Assembly (NCBI GenBank): GCA_027310625.1
Contig: DAIDAM010000008.1
Coordinates: forward strand, 1 to 49,278
Origin: a bacterium
Lineage (GTDB): Bacteria > Patescibacteriota > Minisyncoccia > UBA6257 > 2-01-FULL-56-20
Direction: 5' to 3'
DNA length: 49,278 bases
Shown here in pieces: positions 25,521-44,629 of this stretch (its first letter is position 1; every line of letters starts with the position of its first letter). Under the pieces are notes generated by a model. It had not been told where the DNA came from and did not search any database. It worked only from the letters and a program-made list of their open reading frames with translations. A program made the position numbers and the translations under genes.

Positions 25521-25594
25521 CCCCCACACCAAACAGCAAGCACAGCGCGAAGCGCTAAATTTTAAACTTTAACACTTGCTGTTTGGTGTGGGGG
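25521..25594. repeat. Palindromic element, CACCAAA family, perfect 20-bp terminal inverted repeats
   Basis: CCCCCACACCAAACAGCAAG ... CTTGCTGTTTGGTGTGGGGG. Confidence 0.9.
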
Positions 25595-25620
25595 AAAAGG
25601 GCGAAAAATAAAAATAATAA

Positions 25621-25815
25621 ATGGCTTTCAACAATCAGGGTTTCCAAAGAACGATGCACAAGGCGGGAGACGCCGATGGCTGCACCGGCGGCTGGACTTG
25701 CTCCAACTGCAAGGCGTCCATCGAAGAACTTCCTTTCGCTCCCGACCCGAGCCGCCTCGGACAGCTTCTCTGCCGCGACTGCCATCGCGCGAGGAGGCAG
25801 TCGTCCGGAAGGTAA
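25621..25815 (+). CDS. Small zinc-ribbon (CxxC-x(n)-CxxC) protein
   Basis: 64 aa; GGWTCSNCKASIEELPFAPDPSRLGQLLCRDCHRARR. Confidence 0.75.
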   Translation: MAFNNQGFQRTMHKAGDADGCTGGWTCSNCKASIEELPFAPDPSRLGQLLCRDCHRARRQSSGR

Positions 25816-25924
25816 ACCCAGCCAGCGGCTGGGTAAAACCCGTTCAAAATGCTTGTAAATCCGCCCCGAAACATCGGGGCGGATTGTTTTGCCGTATTGC
25901 AATTTTTTGAGAAAGGTTCTGCAG

Positions 25925-25976
25925 CCACTATGACGCGTCATAGCACTATGCTATAGCATAGTGGCAGAGTTTTTAC
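25925..25976. repeat. Composite palindrome family (CTATGCTATAGCATAGTGGCAGA)
   Basis: CCACTATGACGCGTCATAGCACTATGCTATAGCATAGTGGCAGAGTTTTT; related copies at 8387 and 35490. Confidence 0.85.
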
Positions 25977-37884: not shown

Positions 37885-38360
37885 TAAAAATCCTAATTCC
37901 AAAATCCTAAATCCTAAATAAATTTTAATGTCCCAAATCCAAAATCGTAAACGATACGATCTTGAGGAAAGAACTTTGCGTTTTGCACAGCGGTCTGTAA
38001 ATTTTTCGCAAAAACTTCCCAAGAACCTTGAAAACATAGAGATTAGAAAACAATTTGTGAGGTCGACTGGTTCTGTGGCTGCAAATTACATTGAAGCCAA
38101 CGAAGCATTGAGCAAGAAAGACTTTATTATGAGGATAAAAATTTGCAGAAAGGAAGCAAAAGAGAGTGAACTTTGGTTCAAACTTGCAGTAAGTGGCAAC
38201 AATAATGAAATTGATAAAGAACGCCAGGAGTTGATCGGCGAAGCTGTAGAGCTTAGGAAAATTTTCGGTTCGATTTTGGAGAAATCTAAATAGTTTTCGA
38301 AATTCGTCATTTCATTTTTTTGACATTATTTAGGATTTAGACATTGTTATTTAGGATTTT
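37885..38360. mobile_element. Candidate element: four-helix-bundle ORF bracketed by inverted AATCCTAAAT word repeats
   Basis: Left AAAATCCTAAATCCTAAATAA, right ATTATTTAGGATTTAGACATTGTTATTTAGGATTTT (inverted). Confidence 0.5.
37928..38293 (+). CDS. Four-helix-bundle protein (23S rRNA IVP / S23-like)
   Basis: RYDLEERTLRFAQRSVNFSQKLPKN...QFVRSTGSVAANYIEANEALSKKDFIMRIKICRKEAKESELWFKL. Confidence 0.88.
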   Translation: MSQIQNRKRYDLEERTLRFAQRSVNFSQKLPKNLENIEIRKQFVRSTGSVAANYIEANEALSKKDFIMRIKICRKEAKESELWFKLAVSGNNNEIDKERQELIGEAVELRKIFGSILEKSK

Positions 38361-39140
38361 ATGAGATATAAATTTGGAAAGACAATCATCATCGCCCTCG
38401 GCGGTTCAATCGTTTATCCTGATGAAATTGATTCGGCGTTTATCAAAAAATTCAGAGTACTCATTCTCAAATTTCTCAAAAGAAAGCGCAGGTTTGTGCT
38501 TGTTGTCGGGGGTGGGCGGGCTGCCCGCCTTTTTCAGGAAGCGGCGCATGCGGTTGTTCCGGTGACCGACGAAGACAAGGACTGGCTCGGCATTCACGCC
38601 ACGCGGCTGAACGCGCATCTTTTGCGGACCGTTTTTCGCAATATTGCCGACCCCGTCGTGATAGACAGCCGCGACAAATTAAAGAAATTATCCGCCCATG
38701 GCGGAAGATATCCGGTAATCATCGCTTCCGGCTGGCGGCCGGGTTGGTCGACGGATTACATTTCCATAGCGATTGCGGATTATCTCGGCGCGAAAGAAGC
38801 GGTGATCGCCGGCAAACCCGCGCATGTTTACCCCGTTAGAAGCAGCCGCGCCGGCGGTCCCGGAGGGACTCCCCGACCGCGGTCGGGGAGCGCGACTTCT
38901 AACGGGGTTGACGACAAAGACCTCAACAAAGAAAATCCTTTGCACGAATTGTCGTGGAGTGAATACCGCAAACTGATTCCCGAAAAATGGAAGCCTGGGC
39001 TTCACTCGCCGGTTGACCCCGTGGGCGCAAGGTTGGCTCAAAAGAAAAAAATCGCCGCGATTATCATCAACGGCAAAGATCTGAAAAATTTTGAGAATTT
39101 GCTGAACGGTAGAAATTTTAAGGGAACTGTTATAAGGTAA
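38361..39140 (+). CDS. Amino-acid-kinase-fold UMP kinase (archaeal-like) with palindromic insertion
   Basis: TIIIALGGSIVYPDEID...VLVVGGGRAARLFQEAA...DWLGIHATRLNAHLL...DPVGARLAQKKKIAAIIINGKDLKN; insertion at 38831-38907. Confidence 0.8.
   Translation: MRYKFGKTIIIALGGSIVYPDEIDSAFIKKFRVLILKFLKRKRRFVLVVGGGRAARLFQEAAHAVVPVTDEDKDWLGIHATRLNAHLLRTVFRNIADPVVIDSRDKLKKLSAHGGRYPVIIASGWRPGWSTDYISIAIADYLGAKEAVIAGKPAHVYPVRSSRAGGPGGTPRPRSGSATSNGVDDKDLNKENPLHELSWSEYRKLIPEKWKPGLHSPVDPVGARLAQKKKIAAIIINGKDLKNFENLLNGRNFKGTVIR
38831..38907. repeat. Palindromic element (CCCCGTTAGAAG...CTTCTAACGGGG) inside UMP kinase-like CDS
   Basis: 12-bp perfect terminal IR, inner palindrome CCCCGACCGCGGTCGGGG. Confidence 0.9.
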
Positions 39141-44179: not shown

Positions 44180-44629
44180 CTACTCCAGCGAGAGCAATTT
44201 TTCCACTTTCGCCGCGTTTTCCGGTCCGCGGTCTATTTCAAACCAAATTCTCGGCATCGGCTTGAGATTCAATTTTTTGAAAAGGATGTTCTGAAGAAAA
44301 TTTCTCTTTTTTGAAAGCGCGTCCAAAACCTCTTTTGCTTTTTCTTCGGGAAGAACGCTTACCATAACCCTCGCTGTTTCCAATTCGTCGTCAACTTTCA
44401 CTTCCATTATTGTCGCCAGACAATTTTCAAACTCCATTTCCTTCACGATTATCTTGCTAAGCTCTTCGCGTATCAGTTTTCCCATGCGCTCAGGGCGATG
44501 CTTCATCCCGTTAGAGACAGGTTGCCTCAGGCAACCGTGATATCGCGACCAAACTTCATCTTTAGAGCTTTTCTTGATTGTTTGATAAACATCCTTTTTA
44601 AACTTTAAGTTGTCTCTAACGGGATTCAT
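44180..44629 (-). CDS. rbfA: Ribosome-binding factor A with palindromic-element-derived N-terminal extension
   Basis: MKHRPERMGKLIREELSKIIVKEMEFEN...ARVMVSVLPEEKAKEVLDAL; first ~40 aa lie in an IR element. Confidence 0.85.
   Translation of the reverse strand: MNPVRDNLKFKKDVYQTIKKSSKDEVWSRYHGCLRQPVSNGMKHRPERMGKLIREELSKIIVKEMEFENCLATIMEVKVDDELETARVMVSVLPEEKAKEVLDALSKKRNFLQNILFKKLNLKPMPRIWFEIDRGPENAAKVEKLLSLE
44507..44623. repeat. Palindromic element (CCCGTTAGAGACA...TGTCTCTAACGGG) at the rbfA 5' end
   Basis: 13-bp perfect terminal IRs, inner palindrome GGTTGCCTcAGGCAACC; same family as 38831-38907. Confidence 0.9.

Follow-up and report, generated by a model that had tools for sequence, protein, structure and literature searches.

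An archaeal-type UMP kinase-like gene in the window, the whole 49,278-nucleotide stretch of DNA analysed here, is split in frame by a 76-bp palindromic element. Comparison with orthologs shows this segment to be an insertion. We consider it probable that it is a recently arrived, non-autonomous MITE-like element, and that the family to which it belongs is mobilised by an autonomous form encoding a GIY-YIG nuclease. An earlier note on this DNA had proposed a mobile insert, and this part stands; missing from it were the extent of the family, the duplication of its target and the GIY-YIG partner.

The kinase gene (38361-39140, plus strand, 259 aa) was assigned from matches to TIGR02076 (E 1e-39) and AA_kinase (PF00696, E 1e-15), with archaeal-type uridylate kinases as the closest solved structures. 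The TIGR02076 match stays under the cut-off for whole proteins, a shortfall for which the insert is probably responsible. The open reading frame reads HVY-PVRSSRAGGPGGTPRPRSGSATSNG-VDDKD without a break, with SSRAGGPGGTPRPR as the peptide encoded by the insert. Alignment with the kinases of relatives is unbroken to residue ~158 and restarts at ~184-196, and the segment is absent from all 13 aligned orthologs. A same-genus ortholog (L011) provides an empty site, reading GCGCATGTTTAC|GACAAGGAC without interruption where the window has GCGCATGTTTAC followed by CCCGTTAG...CTAACGGGG, TTGAC and GACAAAGAC. Compared to this empty site, the precise insertion spans 38832-38912, i.e. 81 bp or 27 codons. 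Its parts are the element itself (38832-38907, minus strand, subfamily A, bounded by CCCGTTAGAAG...CTTCTAACGGG(G) terminal repeats) and a duplicate of the 5-bp target TTTAC. The left copy is located at 38827-38831, while the right copy (TTGAC, 38908-38912) carries one change, leaving four of five bases equal. The absence from all 13 orthologs and the uninterrupted L011 site thus identify the segment as a derived insertion, and an ancestral loop of the kinase is ruled out. This bears out the earlier proposals that the gene is split in frame, that such kinases normally lack the insert and that about 27 residues are added.

A bacterial pyrH was not found in the 97%-complete genome, so the interrupted gene may encode its only UMP kinase; this fits an enzyme that tolerates the insert and would still be working. 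The insertion point lies in a loop that contacts ATP in UMP kinases generally, hence the enzyme could be impaired.

The terminal inverted repeats CCCCGTTAGAAG (38831-38842) and CTTCTAACGGGG (38896-38907) match perfectly for 12 bp, as originally described, and for 13 bp when the flanking A/T is counted. An internal palindrome had been reported as 18 bp long; it is present, but as a perfect 22-bp palindrome (CTCCCCGACCG/CGGTCGGGGAG, 38869-38890) that folds as inner hairpin 1. Minimum-energy folds of 19 family members place a second inner hairpin, GTCCC-GGA-GGGAC, at 38857-38869. As single-stranded DNA, the kinase segment folds at -30.2 kcal/mol compared to -18.9 kcal/mol for shuffled sequences (z -4.9). 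The two-hairpin architecture recurs in most single folds of the 19 members with differing stem sequences; within subfamily A the fold is likewise kept with differing stems, and three outer-stem pairs are changed on both sides. RNAalifold on the 19-sequence alignment recovers the outer stem and one inner stem only, because hairpin lengths vary.

Approximately 25 CCCGTTAGA...TCTAACGGG elements are dispersed through the genome (766 kb, 21 contigs), and they carry no transposase gene. A whole-genome 12-mer search returned 25 matches, mostly facing pairs, compared to 5 for the reversed control. Exact CCCGTTAGA ends number 43; almost all of them face a second such end, and the four unpaired ends have degenerate partners. 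The interiors fall into subfamily A (69-75 bp, cloverleaf-like), subfamilies B and C (114-120 bp), other types, and one 275-bp copy containing a GIY-YIG gene. Subfamily A also occurs at C3:111024, C14:869, C20:9809 and C7:7147, as well as in other genera. Across the phylum, the exact paired short form (66-96 bp) was found in 38 of 380 Patescibacteria genomes, and the reversed-pattern control gave none. The fold z-score, the 12-mer excess and this paired pattern therefore indicate more than chance. Target duplication was assessed for 61 short elements by comparing the five bases to the left with five starting one base to the right of the element. These flanks match at four or five of the five positions in 57% of cases, compared to 22% when flanks are permuted between elements whose boundary bases are identical (z 7.8).

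The second family member, already placed at the start of rbfA by the earlier note, was located at 44507-44623 (minus strand, 117 bp, subfamily B). It has the same terminal repeats, a different interior, and TTCAT duplicated at 44502-44506 and 44625-44629. The native rbfA ATG is at 44506, and the RbfA match begins at residue ~43. If the duplicated upstream ATG is used, rbfA (44180-44629, minus strand) gains an N-terminal extension MNPVRD...PVSNG, with the copy contributing 41 codons in frame 5' of the native start. Further in-frame hosts are glmS (C14:869), a copper-type P-ATPase (C7:5423), an open reading frame that by sequence appearance resembles a membrane glycosyltransferase (C3:111024), and valS in the relative G009. 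All in-frame copies except that in the ATPase use the PVR...SNG frame. Frame-breaking insertions are invisible to the open-reading-frame criterion, so the in-frame copies are no proof of a frame preference, and most family members lie outside any long open frame. On both strands, two of the three frames of subfamily A are open, and adding 6 to its length gives a multiple of three in every close copy. This would allow copies within coding sequence to survive as peptide inserts, of 27 residues in the kinase. A rule of length in threes for all copies was rejected as not general, with lengths divisible by three in 27 of 50. The valS open reading frame of G009 (L096) has an apparent internal histidine-phosphatase domain directly after the palindromic element.

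The 275-bp copy (C10:48228-48502) has the same CCCGTTAGA repeats as the short elements. Long elements of this kind measure ~275-280 bp, and their sole gene encodes a GIY-YIG nuclease of ~86 residues that spans from repeat to repeat. The domain in the partner protein matches PF01541 (E 3.5e-15), and the catalytic Y, Y, R, H and E residues are invariant among 17 sequences. A GIY-YIG gene was found in 30 of 41 CPR genomes searched. When 70 GIY-YIG loci of relatives were fetched blind to their flanks, 30 proved to be tightly bounded by inverted repeats with a score of at least 12, compared to 3% for permuted flanks, a null that is conservative because repeats are common to related loci. The repeats vary by nuclease lineage and mostly start with CCC. 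Among named loci, 77 of 80 have terminal repeats scoring at least 12 (67 exact CCCGTTAGA), a count biased towards one repeat type by limiting the scan to the close GIY-YIG clade, the broad alignment being too diverse. The named loci belong mostly to Parcubacteria and Microgenomates, which makes the present genome evidently one of the Patescibacteria.

The association was recovered equally by a search blind to protein, in which exact repeat pairs 265-295 bp apart occurred in 15 of 380 genomes (control 0). Thirteen of the 15 long elements read in this way encode GIY-YIG (E <=4e-33). The short form is present in 13 of the 15 genomes with long elements and in 25 of the 365 others (Fisher p 1e-12, relatedness ignored). 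An exact-match long element is missing from 25 of the 38 short-element genomes in the sample, and in several relatives that carry short elements the GIY-YIG genes are all distant ones. Some short elements are thus relics or are moved otherwise.

At least three terminal-repeat types besides CCCGTTAGA pair a nuclease element with short elements. Repeats of the CCCAGTANTAC type occur only in G004 and G018, the two of eight genomes with a GIY-YIG gene bearing CCCAGTANTAC, where they also bound elements of 68-128 bp with 4-bp duplications (CAAG, CAAA, AAAG). The CCTCCCAACTTTTTGGA repeat in G049 likewise bounds a nuclease element and short elements. The CCCCGTAAGAAA family of the present genome forms a tandem, TATG[GIY-YIG element]TATG[short element]TATG, in which the last ~30 bases are common to both elements (C3:33444-33889, L146), with a third copy at C3:25251-25378.

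GIY-YIG elements with CCCGTTAGA repeats were also seen in MAGs named Woesearchaeota, Omnitrophota, Planctomycetota, Thermodesulfovibrionia and Nitrospinota (L226, L229, L243-L246, L263, L266, L268, L277, L287 and L300). Transfer or binning error could account for the elements in Omnitrophota and the other MAGs. A gene-exchange study (PMC12455944) counts a GIY-YIG protein among the genes that Patescibacteria have donated, which agrees with the presence of the elements in these MAGs.

Target choice can be read from the nuclease elements with clear ends, of which 51 of 70 adjoin an ATG on the right. In 47 of the 51, this ATG starts a frame that is 60 codons or longer or that runs to the end of the locus, while 31% of other downstream ATGs reach 60 codons. 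The usual flanks are ATGAAT on the left and ATGAA on the right, so that the duplication restores the downstream start codon; the TGA stop codon of the nuclease often overlaps the restored ATG. In the kinase, the target is GTAAA (TTTAC on the plus strand), which is related in motif but does not lie at a start codon. A different location is seen in three genera, where GIY-YIG elements with CCCCCCACCACTTYTSATG repeats (L118, L120 and L123, from G004, G014 and G050) are found at the 5' portion of the gene for RNase P RNA. Their insertion point is directly before AGGAAAGTC(C/G)GGAC, and the adjoining sequence matches Rfam RF00010 at 67.8 bits in L118, with weak partial matches in L120 and L123.

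We propose that the ~275-bp element with the GIY-YIG gene is the autonomous form of the CCCGTTAGA family. Its nuclease would recognise the terminal repeats and cut short targets, ATGAA or GTAAA for instance, in a staggered fashion. The full element and its short derivatives would then be joined in, and fill-in would yield the ~5-bp duplication; at a start codon the duplication would restore the downstream ATG, thus making the insertion mild. That the nuclease is the mobiliser appears probable, as it is the only gene found between the repeats, independent repeat types each have a nuclease lineage, and long and short forms co-occur. The cutting and joining chemistry is likewise inferred.

The strongest competing explanation is that an unseen transposase, perhaps of the DDE type, moves the elements in trans as ordinary MITEs, with GIY-YIG a passenger or accessory nuclease that invaded the same repeats. 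Terminal repeats with a ~5-bp duplication are indeed typical of DDE transposases, for which duplications of 5 bp are usual, and the many short-element genomes lacking an exact long element are readily accommodated. No other gene was seen between the repeats, however: pairs in the present genome enclose at most 134 bp or GIY-YIG, and 13 of the 15 long elements found by repeats alone encode GIY-YIG, not a DDE transposase. Several unrelated repeat types, each with its own GIY-YIG lineage, also argue against a passenger, and we regard this explanation as unlikely. Less probable again is homing or gene conversion, in which the nuclease would cut element-free sites, host repair would copy the element, and the repeats would be recognition half-sites only. 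GIY-YIG domains are those of classical homing nucleases (PMC1564403), but the insertion sites lie in unrelated genes that have only a short motif in common. Moreover, copying between homologous flanks gives no target duplication, contrary to what is seen, and a survey of CPR rRNA genes placed GIY-YIG insertions outside homing (PMC11270868).

Mobilisation of REP elements by the Y1 (RAYT) transposase of the genome is very improbable. One Y1_Tnp gene is present (C10:105154-105855, L044:1655-2356), and family members, like REP elements, are small palindromic repeats with REP-like hairpins. The Y1 gene is nevertheless bordered by palindromes of its own, GGAAGTCGGACTTCC, and by no CCCGTTAGA repeat, on which basis RAYT was rejected as the mobiliser. 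The present family also shows target duplication, and we know of none in IS200-like transposition. A spliced intron or intein-like segment that leaves the protein normal can practically be dismissed: the outer stem joins both ends and the reading frame is kept, but the Rfam scan of the window returned tRNAs only, with no RNA family or group I/II intron over the element, the ~75-76-bp segment is far below self-splicing intron or intein size, and most family relatives lie outside long open frames.

Mobilisation by the GIY-YIG nuclease thus remains the preferred reading, and known systems resemble it in part. Prokaryotic MITEs likewise have terminal inverted repeats, target duplication, many gene-less copies and a longer partner with the same ends; here, in contrast, the partner is ~275 bp long and encodes a GIY-YIG nuclease alone, with no known transposase. 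Rickettsia palindromic elements are ~150 bp long and form ten families, with nearly half of the copies located in open reading frames (PMC10969869). Compared by description only, both are short selfish palindromes that add a peptide in frame to unrelated coding genes. The present elements belong to another phylum and are shorter (66-120 bp); they also have a well-defined terminal repeat, duplicate their target and possess a full-length relative that bears a nuclease. The CPR rRNA-gene survey, restricted to rRNA genes, describes GIY-YIG in non-intron insertions together with ORF-less insertions below 200 bp, and contains neither of the terms inverted repeat and palindrome (PMC11270868). By description, its insertions are akin to the present family in being from CPR and in combining GIY-YIG with short forms.

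The open-licence literature yielded no description of a bacterial GIY-YIG element that combines terminal repeats with a duplicated target, and we know of no precedent for a GIY-YIG nuclease acting as transposase. The case is evenly balanced for a new class of DNA transposon, in which an ~86-residue GIY-YIG protein would be the complete mobility enzyme of start-codon-targeting ~275-bp elements. It would act on terminal repeats specific to each family and mobilise folded derivatives of 60-130 bp in trans, some of which would be retained across Patescibacteria as peptides inserted in frame into essential enzymes. If so, one small nuclease domain would be enough for a transposition that uses terminal repeats and duplicates its target, adding a further kind of transposase and an autonomous mobile element among the smallest known. 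This would account for the many GIY-YIG genes in CPR genomes, and perhaps for the short uncharacterised insertions that have been described in their rRNA genes. Besides Rickettsia, there would then be another independent instance in which selfish DNA extends essential enzymes of reduced genomes by peptides, here with an empty site and a candidate mobiliser.

Other repeats were observed in the genome. A 74-bp element with 20-bp CCCCCACACCAAACAGCAAG repeats (25521-25594 of the window) extends into the start of a minus-strand open reading frame (25555-25941). It has relatives at C10:52658 and C10:53321, and in G018 and G022 GIY-YIG genes are flanked by repeats of a similar kind. A short family of 60-106 bp with ACCGAGCACATAAA repeats is found at C3:47076 and, on C10, at 71712, 83557, 87285 and 89290. 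Just 5' of the kinase gene, a 121-aa open reading frame (37928-38293), which we take to resemble four-helix-bundle/S23-type proteins, lies between repeats of the AAATCCTAAAT kind.
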